Below are positions 44,456 to 53,819 of a DNA stretch of 53,819 nucleotides, piece after piece. The stretch is from Entophlyctis helioformis. Lineage: Eukaryota; Chytridiomycota; Chytridiomycetes; Chytridiales; Chytriomycetaceae. The notes beneath the pieces were generated by a model. It worked only from the letters and a program-made list of their open reading frames with translations. It was not told where the DNA came from and made no database searches. The position numbers and the translations under genes are program-made. Location of the stretch: NCBI GenBank assembly GCA_025526915.1, contig JAHLKH010000184.1, positions 1-53,819 on the forward strand, given 5' to 3'. The number at the start of each line of letters is the position of its first letter. The stretch's first letter is position 1.

Positions 44456-45390
44456 CTACACTTGCTGTAAGATGAGCAAGGTGGCGGAGCAGACGGCGGC
44501 CGGATCGTGGTATGGCTTCAGCAGACGGACATGGAACCACGGATGCAGGCGATGCATGGTCGGATGCAGAGCCAGCTTGCAGTTGAGACCATCCAGTGCG
44601 GCATTGACCTCTGTGATCGGGAATGGACCCAGCCAGTTGGGCAGGAACGCGTTGGGGCGATGCGTGTCGGTGGGCCACACAATACCGGCGGCTTGCAGCA
44701 TGACCATGTCGCCGACAGCGTAGGCAGGAGCATCCCGGCGGTGGCGATCGGCGTTGCGCTTCTGTCGTTCCTGAGCCTTGACCAGGTTGGCTGTGGCATC
44801 CACGCGAGCCTTGTCAATGGCAGCGAGCAGGTCGCGGACAGCAGGCGGCGACGATGCTGCAGGTTCGTGTGGCAGCGTGCGAGGCTCGAGACCAAAGGCG
44901 AGGAAGTATGGGGCATAGCCGGTCGATGCACTTGGAGCAGAGTTGAGGGCATGGACAGCCGCATCGAGCATGTGCTCCCAGTTGCTGCCGCGGTGGTTGG
45001 CGTACTTGGACAGCAGGTCCTTGAGCGTGCGGATGGTGCGTTCGGACTGGCCGTCGGTCTCCTGGTGGCGGGCCGTCGCCATGACCTGCTCAATGTCCAG
45101 CGCCGCACAGAGCGCCGTCCAGAAGGCAGACAGGAAGCGAGCGTCGCGGTCCGACACGATAGACGACGGCAGGCCGTGACCAGCAAGCACGCATCGGTTG
45201 AGGAACAGCGCGGCAAGATCCTCGGCAGTCGCATCGCGTCGCGTCGGCACGCACTTGACAAGCTTTGTCAGGCGATCCACAATCACAAACGCAGCGTCGT
45301 TGCCCTCGTCCGACATGGGCAGCAAGGCAATGTCGCAGGTCACAGACTGGAAACGGTCGGCAGGGATGGGCAGCGGGTGCAGCGCACGTT
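44456..45390 (-). mobile_element. Ty3/gypsy LTR retrotransposon remnant: integrase
   Basis: The minus strand encodes an uninterrupted integrase C-terminal half. The DDE residues are visible in VTCDIALLPM, IVSDRDARFLSAFW and HQETDGQSERTIRTLKDLL. Next comes the typical WEHMLDAAVHALN, SAPSASTGYAPYFLAFG helix, a GPY/F-like module (NWLGPFPITEV) and the end LHPWFHVRLLKPYHDPA. Integrases of this family insert element cDNA into host DNA. Reverse transcriptase, RNase H, gag and both LTRs are missing, so it is a truncated, non-autonomous copy. The upstream limit lies at about 45385, where sequence switches to a plus-strand exon-like stretch. Confidence 0.88.
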
Positions 45391-45582
45391 CATAGAGACC
45401 GAGACGTTCAACAAGCACGCGCTCAAGACCGCCACCGAGTCGCCGTTCCAGATCCTGCTTGCGTCGGGCGAGATCAGCAAGGCCGACGACAAAGTGCGCG
45501 AGCCTGTGCTCTCGGACACTGCGATCGTGCAGGTGCCGCTGTGGATGGCTGCCACGGTGCCCAAGATGCCTGCGTCTGTCTA
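45388..45582 (+). other. orphan exon-like plus-strand stretch
   Basis: Directly beyond the integrase remnant an open frame reads RTFIETETFNKHALKTATES, then PFQILLASGEISKADDKV and LSDTAIVQVPLWMAATVPKM. It is preceded by GGGTGCAG (acceptor-like) and followed by GTCT/GTCTG-rich, AC-repeat sequence. It looks like a real protein segment but I cannot assign it. It may be the surviving exon of a gene cut by the retrotransposon, or a 5' exon of the neighbouring RSA4 gene. Confidence 0.35.
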
Positions 45583-45945
45583 TGTCTGCGTCTGTCTGTC
45601 TGTCTGTGCACGCATGTGGCGCTTGCAATGCACTTGCCCGCTCTTGCTGCTCTCTGCCCGTCGCCCGTCTCGTCCGGAATCTTGCTCGCACACACACACA
45701 CACACAGCCGCACAGCATGGCTGCTCAACGGCCACCGACACAGCCAGCCACGCACCGTGCTGGGCCTGCCCGCCACAGGGGCTCAGTGCCCAGCAACCCG
45801 CAGCCGCAGCCTCGTTCAGCAATGCCCCGCCCACAGCGCACCCGCTCGACTCGGCTGGTGCTGCAACCAGCACACTGCTGGCACGGCGGCCTCACACAGA
45901 CACTTCACCACCAAGCACAACGACGACGACGACAACCACTGCTAG

Positions 45946-47873: not shown

Positions 47874-50800
47874 ATGACCCTCAACGGCAAGGAAACTCCC
47901 CACGACGGGTCGCCGCCACTAGCGGTTGCCGCCCCTGCTGCTGAGCACGCCGTGCACCAACGCGGAAACGCCCCCTCCTTTGACGCCCCTCCATTGACGC
48001 CTCCTCGACGGCCATCACCAAGCCGCCTCGAGCCATCGCTGCTCCAAGTGTGGCCGCCATCAGCACCAAGAGCAAGCCGAGCAAGTGGTACGACCGTCTC
48101 ATCTGTGGCAGCGTGCCCACATCGGCCAGCAGGCAACTCCTGCCAAGAGTGCCTTGCCCTCTGTCTCGACCGTCGAGGATGACGAGCAGCGATCCGCTCC
48201 TCCAAACGCTGTGCCAATCAGCATCGATGTGGCTGAAGTCAATGCCAACAAGGTGTGGCCGTGCACCACTGCCGTTGCTGCCGTTGCTTCTGCCTGCCGC
48301 CACTGCTGCATTGACTGACACACACACAGCTCCGCTCTGAGCTCGTGGTGATGCTCGAAGAGGAGGCTGCTCGCATCAAGACTGCCAATCCATCCAAGCA
48401 TGAAGATCTCGTCAGTGCCATCGACGGGCATGTGGACAGGATGTTCGAGCTGCGGAGCCAGATCGTCGTGAGCAGCCGCATCGCTCCCGCTGCTGTGGAT
48501 GACTCGCTGGCCCAGGCTGCTCGAGTCGCTCCGACTGCGAAAGTGGATGCTGCCTTTAAGGAGCTCAAGCGCGTTCTCGGATCGGCACTCGAGAAGAAAG
48601 AGATCATCACGGCCTATAGCTCGTTCCTCAAGGAGGTTGGCGAGGACGAGGTTGACATTGATGCAGCCACCGTCTCCAACATCGCCACGCTGTCGTCGTC
48701 CGTCGTCGAGTTTGTCGACAGGATCCACAAGGCTCCCAAGAAGACCGACGGCAGCAGCTTCAAGGCCGTGACGCGCTTCCTCGCCACCAACAGCCTCGAA
48801 GTCATCTCGACTGTCATCTCTGCAGCCAAGGTTGCGTCGCAGTTTTTGCCGTTCCCATTCATTCACGACGCCATTGGCATCATCGACAGCATCTTCAGCA
48901 ACATCAAGGGCGGCGTGGAGAGCATTGCCGGTCTGAAGAGCTTCCTGGACGACCTAAAGGAACTCAAGGCGATCCTTGCACCGATGGCCAACCAGCGGTT
49001 CTCTGCCGATGTGCGCGACAAGTGCGCTGAGCTGGTGGATCTGCTCAAGCAAGTTCAGGCGTGCATCCCGACTGGCACCAGCACGACTGGTAGCTGGTAC
49101 AAGAATATCTCTGAAGCCAAGAAGGTTGCAGCCCAGATCACTGGATACAATAGCCGTCTTGCCAAGATCAAGGAGGTGCGTGACGATCGCTTTGCTCTCA
49201 GGGATCTGTGCACTTGGCTGACTGACACTCTCCACCCACCAGCTGATCTCGCTCGCCATGCAAGTGGACTCTGCTGTCATGCTGATGCACACGGCCAAGA
49301 AACTCAACCTGATCGACACCAAGACAGACAAGATCCTGCAGTGCGTCTTGCTGCCATTGGCTGCCACCACCACACCATTTCCATCCACTGACACGCGACG
49401 CTATACAGATACGTCCGTCCGCGTACTCTCCACCTTCGCCACGACGACTTTTCCAATCCCAAGTCTGCACCGAACGATGTCCATGGTCGCTTCATCACCT
49501 TGATTGCCAGTATGGACGGAATGGACTTTGTGCTCAAGACCTTTAAGCAGCCATTCAACTCAGAGGCGATCGAGACTGAGGCACGCAAGTGGTTCAACAT
49601 GAGCCACCCCAGCATCCTTGATCTCACTGGCATCTGTCTCAAGGGCAAGGACGACCAGAAGCCATTCCTCGCCTTCCCCTTTGTAAGGGACGATCTTGAG
49701 TCCTTCATGAAAGCCCCTCCTCGTCTTTCCATGGACAATCGCATCTCCATCCTCATCCGTCTGGCCCGCGGTATCCAGTATCTACACAAGTATGCACCTG
49801 GTGCACCCATTGTGCATGGCTCACTGACTCTACGCCATGTCCGCGTTGGTAAGTGTGCTGTGGAAACACATTGGGTTTCATGTCAATGCATTGCTGGATC
49901 GTATGCAGATGGGCTGATTGAATGGCATGCCATGACAGAGGCAAAGATGAATGATGCTGGCACTCTCAAGATCCGCAGTGTCAAGATTATGCCCAACATC
50001 AAGTCAGCTGGTGATGCCACGCAAGCGATGGATTCCCCTTTTCTAGCTCCTGAGGCTAAGGAGGATGCCGAGAATCCTGAGGAGCCACTTGACATCTATG
50101 CCTTTGGAATCATTGCCAAGGCAGTGCTGTCCTGTGAGCTGCCAGAGCAGCTGGATCTGGAGGCAATGGAGAAGCCTGAATATGACTTGGACCGGCTGTG
50201 GGGCATCATCAACAAGTGCTGTTATCCAGTGGATCACTACCGCCCAGAGGCGGATGAACTCATGCAAGAACTACTCCAGGCTGCAACCTCCAACAAAAAA
50301 GGCAAGTGTGATACTGCCTGTAGCTGCATGATCTGGCTGTCCAGCATAGAGCTGACTGAATGAGACCTGAAATGGAAGCAGGCAACAAGGTCATGCTGCA
50401 GGCCGGCGCCACTGATCTGGAAACACTCTGCTTCTTGTTCCCTGAGTGGACAGATGACAGCGAGATCACTGACAACTCGACCAATGTCAATGGCGGAATG
50501 CTGCATCTGTTTGATGCTCATCTGGGACGCACAATCTCCAACCTCAGACTTGAGTGGAATGCCAAGTTCAACTTGACAGCTCTGTGAGTGCGGTTGTGGT
50601 GTGATTGGATGTATGACAGCTGTGGACTGACAGAAGTGCTGTGTGTGCACCGCATGGACAGACGCCTGACTGGCTGTGGTCTCACTGGCACCATTCCTGA
50701 GGAGATTGGCAATCTGAGAATGCTGACTGAGCTGTGAGTTGGAGAAAGCTGCAAGTGTGTGAATGTGGTGGATGGCTAAGACTGCATCAAATGGTTGAAT

Positions 50801-53800
50801 GGACAGCTGGCTTGATCAGAACAATCTGGTTGGCATCTCACCAAAGATCTGCAAGCTGACAAAGCTCAAGTCACTGTGAGTGCTTTGATGCCACTGTGGA
50901 TGGATGGATGGATGGATGGATGGATGGATGGATGCTGATGCAGACAAATCAACCAAACAGGCGGCTTGGACAAAACATATCAATTGGATCCCTTCCATCA
51001 ACAATCAGACTGCTGAGGGACTTGGAGGAGCTGTGAGTGTGAAGCATTGTTTGCACTGGCAGAACAAGTGAGTTTGACTGACTGGATGGTGGATCACATG
51101 TGCAGTGATATCCAGGGCAATCAGATTGAAACACTACCAGAGGCTTTGTGGGATCTGCACAAGTTGACAAAGCTGTGAGTGGCAATGATGGAGAAGCAAG
51201 ATTGATGGGGTGGCTTTGTTGGCTAACTATTGCTTGATGGACAGGAATGTCTCTGATAATGGCATCCAGGAAATACCAGAGGAGATTGGACAGTTGTCGA
51301 GCTTGGAGGTGTTGTATGTACTGACTATGGATGGATGGTGAAGTGGATTGGATGTGACTGCTGACATGGATTGGATGCTGCAGGGATCTGAGGGACAATC
51401 AGCTCAGATGGCTGCCTGAATCAATTGGCAATCTGACACAACTGACTGAGCTGTAAGTTCAAACTGTGGATGGGTGGTGAAGTGTATTGGATGTGATTAC
51501 TGACATGGAGTGGATGCTGCAGGGATCTGAGAAGCAACAAGCTGAAGACACTGCCTGAATCCATTGGCAAACTGGTCAATCTGACTGAGCTGTAAGTTCA
51601 AACTGTGGATGGATGGTGAAGTGGATTGGATGTGATTGCTGACATGGAGTGGATGCTGCAGGGATCTGAGAAGCAACAAGCTGAAGACACTGCCTGAATC
51701 CATTGGCAAACTGGTCAATCTGACTGAGCTGTAAGTGTCAACTGTGGATGTATGGTGAAGTGGATTGGATGTGACTACTGACATGGAATGGATGCTTCAG
51801 GGATCTGAGAAGCAACAACTGGAAACACTGCCAGAATCCATTGGCAATCTGACACAACTGACCAGTCTGTAAGTGTCAACTGTGGATGGATGGTGAAGTG
51901 GATTGGATGTGACTGCTGACATGGAGTGGATGCTGCAGGGTCTGTATGACAATCAGCTCACAGAACTGCCTGAATCCATTGGCAATCTGATCAATCTGAC
52001 TGAGCTGTAAGTTCAAACTGTGGATGGATGGTGAAGTTGATTTGATGTGATTGCTGACATGGAGTGGATGCTGCAGGGATCTGAGAAGCAACAAGCTGAA
52101 GAACTGCCTGAATCCATTGGCAACTGGTCAATCTGACTGAGCTGTAAGTGTCAACTGTGGATGGATGGTGAAGTGGATTGGATGTGACTGCTGACATGGA
52201 ATGGATGCTGCAGGGTCTGTATGACAATCAGCTCACAGAACTGCCTGAATCCATTGGCAATCTGATCAATCTGACTGAGCTGTAAGTGTCAACTGTGGAT
52301 GGATGGTGAAGTGGATAGGATGTGATTACTGACATGGAGTGGATGCTGCAGGGGTCTGTATGACAATCAGCTCACAGAGCTGCCTGAATCCATTGACAAT
52401 CTGGTCAATCTGACTGAGCTGTAAGTGTCAACTGTGGATGTATGGTGAAGTGGATTGGATGTGATTACTGACATGGAGTGGATGCTGCAGGGTCTGTATG
52501 ACAATCAGCTCACAGAGCTGCCTGAATCCATTGGCAATCTGATCAATCTGACTGAGCTGTAAGTTCAAACTGTGGATGGATGGTGAAGTTGATTTGATGT
52601 GATTGCTGACATGGAGTGGATGCTGCAGGGATCTGAGTGGCAATCAGCTGGAGACATTGCCTGAATCCATTGGCAAACTGGTCAATCTGACCAGTCTGTA
52701 AGTTCAAACTGTGGATGTATGGTGAAGTTGATTTGATGTGATTGCTGACATGGAGTGGATGCTGCAGGGGTCTGTGGAACAACAAGCTGGAGACACTGCC
52801 TGAATCCATTGGCAATCTGACACAACTGACCAGTCTGTAAGTGTCAACTGTGGATGGATGGTGAAGTGGATTGGATGTGATTGCTGACATGGAATGGATG
52901 CTGCAGGGTCTGTATGACAATCAGCTCACAGAGCTGCCTGAATCCATTGGCAATCTGATCAATCTGACTGAGCTGTAAGTGTCAACTGTGGATGGATGGT
53001 GAAGTGGATTGGATGTGATTACTGACATGGAGTGGATGCTGCAGGGTCTGTATGACAATCAGCTCACAGACTGCCTGAATCCATTGACAATCTGGTCAAT
53101 CTGACTGAGCTGTAAGTGTCAACTGTGGATGTATGGTGAAGTGGATTGGATGTGACTACTGACATGGAATGGATGCTGCAGGGATCTGAGAAGCAACAAC
53201 TGGAAACACTGCCAGAATCCATTGGCAATCTGACACAACTGACCAGTCTGTAAGTGTCAACTGTGGATGTATGGTGAAGTGGATTGGATGTGACTGCTGA
53301 CATGGAGTGGATGCTGCAGGCATCTGTATGGCAATGTGCTCACAGAACTGCCTGAATCCATTGGCAATCTGGTCAATCTGACCAGTCTGTAAGTTCAAAC
53401 TGTTGATGTATGGTGAAGTTGATTTGATGTGATTGCTGACATGGAGTGGATGCTGCAGGGATCTGAGTGGCAATCAGCTGGAGACATTGCCTGAATCCAT
53501 TGGCAAACTGGTCAATCTGACCAGTCTGTAAGTTCAAACTGTGGATGGATGGTGAAGTTGATTTGATGTGATTGCTGACATGGAGTGGATGCTGCAGGGG
53601 TCTGTGGAACAACAAGCTGGAGACACTGCCTGAATCCATTGGCAATCTGACACAACTGACCAGTCTGTAAGTGTCAACTGTGGATGGATGGTGAAGTGGA
53701 TTGGATGTGACTGCTGACATGGAATGGATGCTGCAGGGTCTGTATGACAATCAGCTCACAGAACTGCCTGAATCCATTGACAATCTGGTCAATCTGACCA

Positions 53801-53819
53801 GTCTGTAAGTTCAAAACTG
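47874..53819 (+). CDS. helical N-terminus / pseudokinase / LRR receptor-like protein (3' partial)
   Basis: Start ATG 47874 (MTLNGKETPHDGSPPLAVA). Exons 47874-48252, 48330-49175, 49243-49340, 49409-49848, 49909-50301 and 50382-50583, then one LRR exon after another to the window end. Frame slips (-1) occur near 47985 and 48115. 48330-49340 encodes about 315 helical residues, including the hydrophobic PFPFIHDAIGIIDSIFSNIK. 49409-50301 is a kinase fold. The ATP-site Lys (FVLKTF, 49536) and APE (FLAPE, 50039) are present. HRD is HGS (49815), DFG is SVK (49977), and no glycine loop is visible: a pseudokinase. The donor of the 50302 intron is GC (AAG/GCAAGT). LRRs are the xLPESIGxLxxL type. The plan resembles helical-bundle pseudokinases (MLKL) fused to an LRR sensor; binding or cell-death roles are inference. 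Confidence 0.8.
50662..51313 (+). other. five diverse leading LRR exons
   Basis: Exons 50662-50733, 50807-50875, 50944-51032, 51106-51174 and 51245-51313 encode LRRs such as LTGCGLTGTIPEEIGNL, WLDQNNLVGISPKICKL, DIQGNQIETLPEALWDL and NVSDNGIQEIPEEIGQL. Their sequences and introns differ from each other, unlike the array that follows, so they are the older part. The third is longer and has one base missing near 50975. Confidence 0.75.
50893..50937 (+). repeat. (ATGG)n microsatellite in an LRR intron
   Basis: About nine uninterrupted GGAT/ATGG units inside the intron between the second and third LRR exons. The same GGATGGATGG word persists once in each downstream LRR intron. Confidence 0.85.
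51384..53819 (+). repeat. tandem LRR exon-intron array (18 units, continues past the window)
   Basis: Unit of 137-139 nt: one 67-69 nt exon plus one intron of about 70 nt. Exon starts: 51384, 51523, 51662, 51801, 51939, 52077, 52214, 52352, 52491, 52629, 52768, 52907, 53045, 53182, 53320, 53459, 53598, 53737. Exons begin in phase 2 and end in phase 2, so each adds exactly 23 residues (DLRSNKLKTLPESIGKLVNL pattern). Introns share GTAAGT, the GGATGGTGAAG word, a CTGACAT branch-like site and GGATGCTGCAG. Ten exons keep 69 nt; the others lack one or two bases, mostly in the GGG at the exon start. Confidence 0.93.

Follow-up and report, generated by a model that had tools for sequence, protein, structure and literature searches.

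A chytrid gene family joining a helical N-terminus, a pseudokinase and leucine-rich repeats, with features of an intracellular receptor

In animals and plants, MLKL places a helical domain ahead of a pseudokinase of the tyrosine kinase-like (TKL) type, and NBS-LRR proteins and NOD-like receptors (NLRs) are tripartite, with an N-terminal signalling domain, a central ATPase switch and C-terminal leucine-rich repeats (LRRs). Plant LRR receptor kinases have the LRRs first, followed by a membrane-spanning segment and a kinase, and these kinases are mostly active. Most fungal NLRs described carry ANK, TPR or WD40 repeats (PMC9815663, PMC10197012), and some HELL domains are located within proteins bearing kinase or pseudokinase domains (PMC12881547). 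In a survey of 2010, LRR receptors in the sense of LRRs with one membrane helix were reported as absent from fungi, missing in 45 of 49 fungal genomes (PMC2939053). Here we describe a gene at one end of contig JAHLKH010000184.1 (C184) from the 29.6-Mb genome of Entophlyctis helioformis (Chytridiomycota), the window analysed being this whole contig of 53,819 bases. The gene encodes, in this order, a helical N-terminus, a kinase fold without the HRD and DFG motifs and LRRs with one exon per repeat, and it belongs to a family found in two chytrid genera. This family and its architecture are real, as are the loss of catalytic motifs, the one-LRR-per-exon arrays and the pattern of their variation. 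We read it, with a probability of about 0.43, as a chytrid family of intracellular LRR receptors without a nucleotide-binding switch and with a helical output related to MLKL/HeLo.

At the C184 locus, the sequence from 47874 up to the contig end reads as six exons followed by LRR exons (Table 1). Splicing of exons 2 to 6 and the first eight LRR exons gives a single open frame, in which 11 of 12 introns are GT-AG and one is GC-AG, and the public gene model for the locus is likewise one protein, of 1,220 amino acids (P0001, BC831DRAFT_515624). This model and P0003 of contig C165 both begin at the aligned ATG of exon 1. Before the contig end 23 LRR exon units are present, 14 of 69 or 72 nt, seven of 68 nt and two of 67 nt, and since the window spans the entire contig the array is incomplete and 23 repeats are a minimum. 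The domain order, the motifs and the number of repeats put forward in the original prediction, which was made from the bare sequence, are borne out by splicing and by Pfam. Its view of a single gene agrees with the continuous splicing and with the annotation of the same order, separately, in two species, and on these grounds an assignment of kinase and LRRs to separate genes was rejected. A possible exception to the single gene concerns Polyrhizophydium stewartii, where a helical-domain protein (P0018, HK105_006998) and a kinase-LRR protein (P0020, HK105_006997) have neighbouring locus numbers and represent either a split gene or a split model.

A genome search using the main part of exon 2 gave 31 matches at 20 E. 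helioformis loci, C184 included. The kinase is present at 16 of these loci, namely C184 and 15 of the 19 others, and no kinase match was found in the sequence fetched for the remaining four (C318, C286, C27 and C111, the last being cut by the contig end); six weaker kinase matches lie elsewhere in the genome, at 28-36% identity. Protein searches revealed relatives in P. stewartii, with at least five gene models having the helical region, the kinase and the LRRs in the same order (P0008, P0011, P0013, P0015 and P0016), besides the partial members P0018, P0020 and P0021. According to the NCBI taxonomy, the two genera fall in Chytridiales and Rhizophydiales. A third protein search, using the N-terminus and kinase as query, added four further chytrid proteins and four other kinases. 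Each of the three protein searches scored only about 8,000 candidates, by which a limitation of the family to two species is not established, and none of them returned a Batrachochytrium protein. Among the variant members, C382 (L054) and C460 (L041) have the helical region and the kinase, with no LRR exons detected downstream by the motif scan. The C286 member (L050; P0019), situated 8.5 kb from a contig end with telomere repeats, shows no kinase match downstream and is annotated as a protein of 287 amino acids with the helical N-terminus alone, which could be a decoy or an adaptor.

The kinase part of the C184 copy lies above the Pfam cut-off (PF07714, 43.6 bits versus 23.1), and the predicted motif changes were confirmed, with HGS in place of HRD, SVK in place of DFG and retention of the VAIK-type Lys and the APE; the glycine loop, which had been called missing, was found to be degenerate. 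These losses are common to the family. Alignments of the 15 other kinase-bearing loci contain 14 readable catalytic loops, HGS in 13 and HCS in one, and when 15 proteins were aligned (excluding kinase-less proteins as well as P0009, P0010 and P0012, which model the same genes in shorter form), HRD was found in none of 14 readable loops and DFG in none of 15, while the Lys is kept in all 15 and the helix-C Glu in 14. Absence of HRD and DFG from the aligned members of both genera suggests that the dead kinase is older than their split, the loss of catalytic motifs thus being probably ancestral. The kinase exon has dN/dS values of 0.19-0.60 (36 pairs, C184 copy excluded). A kinase fold devoid of HRD/DFG catalytic residues is shared with the MLKL family. 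In a PDB sequence search with the N-terminus and kinase as query, the best 60 of 801 matches are all kinases (c-Met, SymRK, IRAK, MLK, MLKL, BAK1 and others) aligned over the kinase only, and the VIA matches also span the kinase only; absence of the bundle there says nothing against the bundle.

Each LRR is encoded by one exon of 69 or 72 nt, separated by short introns and splitting a Leu codon at both ends in the same phase, and hence the frame tolerates the gain or loss of LRR units. Two types of LRR occur, LPESIGNL in the 69-nt exons and GxIPxELGNL in the 72-nt exons. In the C101 copy (L040), a block of four different LRR exons recurs as three complete copies with hardly any change and a partial fourth, which we take as a sign of recent amplification. 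The scan for LRR exons covered 14 of the 19 fetched loci, with none detected at C460 and C382 and one at C10. The analysis of variation drew on seven of the 12 loci in which LRR exons were detected and comprised 82 distinct exons of 72 nt. The most variable residue is the one just before the LxL strand, with an entropy of 3.55 bits. At four positions, which from LRR geometry we take to be those of the binding face, the ratio of nonsynonymous to synonymous differences (pN/pS) is 0.95, as compared to 0.47 elsewhere, and in 43 close pairs the corresponding values are 0.67 and 0.38. Twelve of the 210 possible choices of four among ten positions, the chosen set included, reach the same pN in close pairs, and LRR positions 8, 10 and 13 vary too, and hence the enrichment at the binding face is moderate. 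A moderate diversification of the predicted binding face is suggested by these values, although ratios below one do not prove positive selection.

In the reading that we prefer, the C-terminal LRR array would be a variable intracellular sensor that binds a ligand, and the central pseudokinase, lacking the usual catalytic residues, would constitute a conserved conformational switch. Ligand binding would free the N-terminal helical bundle to oligomerise, and the released bundle would then act on membranes or on partners, probably leading to local or whole-cell death or to another defence response. We infer sensing, relay and cell death, with bundle release and action on membranes or partners modelled on what is known of MLKL and HET-S (PMC10197012, PMC12881547), and the overall mechanism is plausible. 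Experiments are called for in PMC9815663 before killing is attributed to related domains that have an N-terminal extension, and the chytrid family has one. In a more specific and more tentative form, which we hold to be rather doubtful, the family would represent a single-polypeptide NLR-like receptor with an MLKL-type pseudokinase in place of the ATPase, whose LRR sensor directly releases a necroptosis-like executioner with no separate NLR, amyloid or RIP kinase, its repertoire arising from duplication near chromosome ends and from one-LRR exons being added or removed in frame, in a genome where classical NLRs are almost absent.

Several described systems share parts of this layout. The tripartite build resembles that of NLRs, with superstructure-forming C-terminal repeats, here LRRs; unlike in NLRs, the place of the ATPase is occupied by the pseudokinase, and no NACHT or NB-ARC domain was found at E <= 0.5 in the eight family proteins scanned. 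With MLKL the family shares the succession of a helical domain and a TKL-type pseudokinase, and it differs in the addition of a C-terminal LRR array and a long N-terminal extension, and in its about 20 copies mostly near contig ends. In fungal HeLo/HELL and basidiomycete MLKL-like effectors (PMC9815663, PMC12881547), sensor-type proteins likewise begin with a helical domain related to MLKL, a kinship that is probable in the chytrid family, and the fungal NLRs of PMC9815663 differ by having ANK, TPR or WD40 repeats instead of LRRs. Four genes of Batrachochytrium dendrobatidis, another chytrid, similarly encode LRR and kinase without a membrane helix (PMC2939053). Among the matches listed for literature on chytrid pseudokinase-LRR proteins, fungal MLKL/HeLo kinases with LRRs, chytrid LRR kinases and chytrid necroptosis, no description of this architecture was found, in line with the original prediction, which knew of no fungal family with this order; the modules are known and their combination appears undescribed. 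If the reading is correct, early-diverging fungi would gain a candidate LRR-based intracellular sensor system, and a natural fusion of sensor, pseudokinase switch and executioner would make the evolution of necroptosis-like death directly testable. The one-exon-per-LRR arrays offer a clear route to changed specificity with the frame unbroken.

The link to a helical output depends on the N-terminus, whose helical core matches MLKL_N (PF22215) more strongly than any other Pfam family, with 18.4 bits in the C184 copy and up to 23.8 bits (E 3.4e-5) in P. stewartii copies. Using nine trimmed members, MLKL_N was matched in five over overlapping stretches and was the only Pfam family matching more than two of the nine; the reversed-sequence control with the same members reached a best E of 0.0018, to another family. 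An AlphaFold2 model of the paralog P0006, built with 15 sequences, has a mean predicted local distance difference test (pLDDT) score of 55, with 81-87 at kinase residues 591-650, and places helices at 225-251, 257-272, 282-300, 307-330, 337-342 and 346-385. This order fits the basidiomycete MLKL-like pattern of an extra first helix, h1, h2, h3, a short perpendicular helix and h4 (PMC9815663). Foldseek with this model against the PDB returned kinases, MLKL (4btf) being at rank 19 with E 2e-9, and 4btf, a chain of 413 residues, was alone among the best 50 matches in aligning over 437 columns as compared to 271-302 for the others; the extra columns presumably lie on the modelled helical bundle. 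The linker between bundle and pseudokinase is conserved and is modelled with pLDDT below 50 (374-406 of P0006) at the site of the MLKL brace helices. In 13 of the 20 proteins bearing the region, hydrophobicity along the entire chain peaks in a stretch that overlaps the predicted h1, as would fit contact with a membrane; in several proteins this stretch is FVPIPGIAVAIGIID, with about 1.9 on the Kyte-Doolittle scale, and the C184 copy has 1.26 here, with a higher-scoring stretch in its kinase. The helical exon has dN/dS values of 0.33-0.94 (21 pairs).

A number of results weigh against this kinship and against the reading built on it. All MLKL_N scores (18.4-23.8 bits) are under the cut-off of 27, and the C184 match (E 0.0016) does not surpass the best reversed control, and hence the case for MLKL_N rests on the P. 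stewartii members. Among full-length proteins only four of eight have the match (P0011, P0013, P0015 and P0016, as opposed to P0003, P0006, P0008 and P0017), and the Pfam scan found none in P0018, P0019 and P0021. A whole-genome search with MLKL_N missed the family, its two hits being weak and located elsewhere (E 0.03 and 0.7), and an N-terminal profile run against PDB sequences found no MLKL chain at E <= 10, its best match having E 0.16. The helical core of the P0006 model reaches a pLDDT of only 31-63, with 31-44 in the first core helix; a model of the isolated N-terminus is weak (mean pLDDT 50) and gave no Foldseek match at E <= 0.001. The P0006 model superposes poorly on 4btf, with a root-mean-square deviation of 20, as would follow from a different arrangement of the domains or from a wrong N-terminal model. 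Unlike in MLKL and HET-S, the helical core comes after a long extension, and other tyrosine kinase (TK)/TKL kinases are at least as close to the kinase as MLKL is. As to HeLo effectors, Pfam HeLo (PF14479) had no match at E <= 10 in the genome search, whose sensitivity is limited, the equivalent search having also missed MLKL_N. Taken together, we estimate the relation of the N-terminus to the MLKL/HeLo bundle to be somewhat favoured. The likeness to a helical executioner proposed earlier thus stands as far as the repeated sub-threshold MLKL_N matches, the reversed control and the 4btf match are concerned, and lacks a confident model of the domain; similarly, the suggested structure prediction for comparison with HeLo/4HB folds, carried out on P0006, gave a helix order of the MLKL-like pattern at low confidence.

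Whether the C184 copy itself is intact is a separate matter. Its reading frame breaks at the ninth LRR unit, with 67 or 68 nt in nine of the 23 LRR exons, and exon 1 differs in length from the C101 copy by one base at two places, at one of which it also differs from further copies; the P0001 model crosses these frame-disturbed places using splices of its own. The 12 paralogous loci yielded 141 detected LRR exons, 139 of them with a length divisible by three, while in C184 only 11 of 16 are so with the same motif filter, which favours readable exons. Exon 2 of the closest copy, which lies on C96, contains two stops. Such findings would be explained if the C184 copy, and perhaps C96 as well, were a decaying duplicate that is no working receptor itself while the family still works, an explanation compatible with the other readings and, in our view, with odds a little short of even. 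Against it, exons 2 to 6 and the first eight LRRs are in frame, and the off-length units lie within a near-identical tandem array of 139 nt at the contig end, where consensus errors are expected. The C184 copy is therefore doubtful, due to either sequence error from poor consensus in this array or decay.

A broader alternative, which we regard as possible with the odds clearly against it, is that the proteins are regulatory scaffolds and not immune receptors, with LRRs directed at endogenous partners, a pseudokinase acting as allosteric adaptor and a helical domain that serves dimerisation or localisation in development or growth. Many intracellular LRR proteins are scaffolds, concave-face variability occurs in LRR proteins without immune roles, and the MLKL_N matches remaining under the cut-off suit this alternative as well. 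However, the large size of the family, its position mostly close to contig ends, with two members near telomere repeats, its repeated LRR blocks and the focus of its variation on the predicted binding face fit recognition better than fixed partners. A cell-surface or allorecognition receptor of the plant LRR-kinase kind is very improbable: the kinase group and LRR type are those of plant LRR receptor kinases, the GxIPxELGNL repeats resemble theirs and the best non-chytrid match to the family profile is the plant receptor-like kinase P0022, but the LRRs follow the kinase instead of preceding it, the kinase is dead, and a hydropathy scan, which is a crude test, found no strong membrane-spanning stretch in the family, with best windows of 1.2-1.9 as compared to 2.7-3.4 in P0022, P0023 and P0025. 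The term receptor in the original prediction hence holds for the sensor-type layout and not in the cell-surface sense, the proteins being best read as intracellular.

Table 1. Exons of the pseudokinase-LRR gene on contig C184
Feature	Position	Strand	Remarks
Exon 1: Pro/Ser-rich N-terminal tail	47874..48252	+	ATG at 47874; frame disturbed in C184 copy; paralog alignment
Exon 2: helical N-terminal region (282 aa), with the MLKL_N-like core in its C-terminal part	48330..49175	+	
Exon 3: highly conserved linker, helical core to pseudokinase (SLAMQVDSA...LIDTKTDKIL)	49243..49340	+	
Exon 4: pseudokinase N-lobe to catalytic loop; FVLK kept, HRD to HGS	49409..49848	+	
Exon 5: pseudokinase C-lobe; DFG to SVK, APE kept; GC-AG intron after	49909..50301	+	
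Exon 6: pre-LRR linker (DLETLCFLFPEW...)	50382..50583	+	
First eight LRR exons, 69 or 72 nt, one LRR each	50662..51730	+	in frame with exons 2-6
15 more LRR exon units, 139-nt tandem array to contig end	51801..53804	+	nine of 67 or 68 nt, out of frame

As to the genomic setting, 17 of the 20 loci are situated within 12 kb of a contig end, a zone holding at most 39% of the genome (P 3e-5), an excess explained in part by repeat arrays that break assemblies, and telomere repeats were found within about 11 kb of two members, C29 and C286. In 12 of the 19 other loci (L041-L044, L046, L048-L053 and L055), the 3' end of an ankyrin-like gene, possibly a co-duplicated partner, lies directly upstream on the same strand, and the 3' flank of a WD40 gene is common to C184 (47522-47870), C96 (L039:1-336) and C101 (L040:1-350) with 96-98% identity. 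Such shared flanks indicate that whole blocks larger than the receptor gene were copied. At E <= 0.001, the E. helioformis genome contains one NACHT match (C17:90946-91446, 33.8 bits) and no NB-ARC match, and the single NACHT agrees with NLR numbers reported to go down to one in Chytridiomycota species (PMC12258605). Given this scarcity, the family could be the main set of intracellular sensors in E. helioformis. Beside the WD40 gene, an open frame on the minus strand (window 44456-45718) presumably resembles a retrovirus-type integrase core and is probably a retrotransposon remnant.

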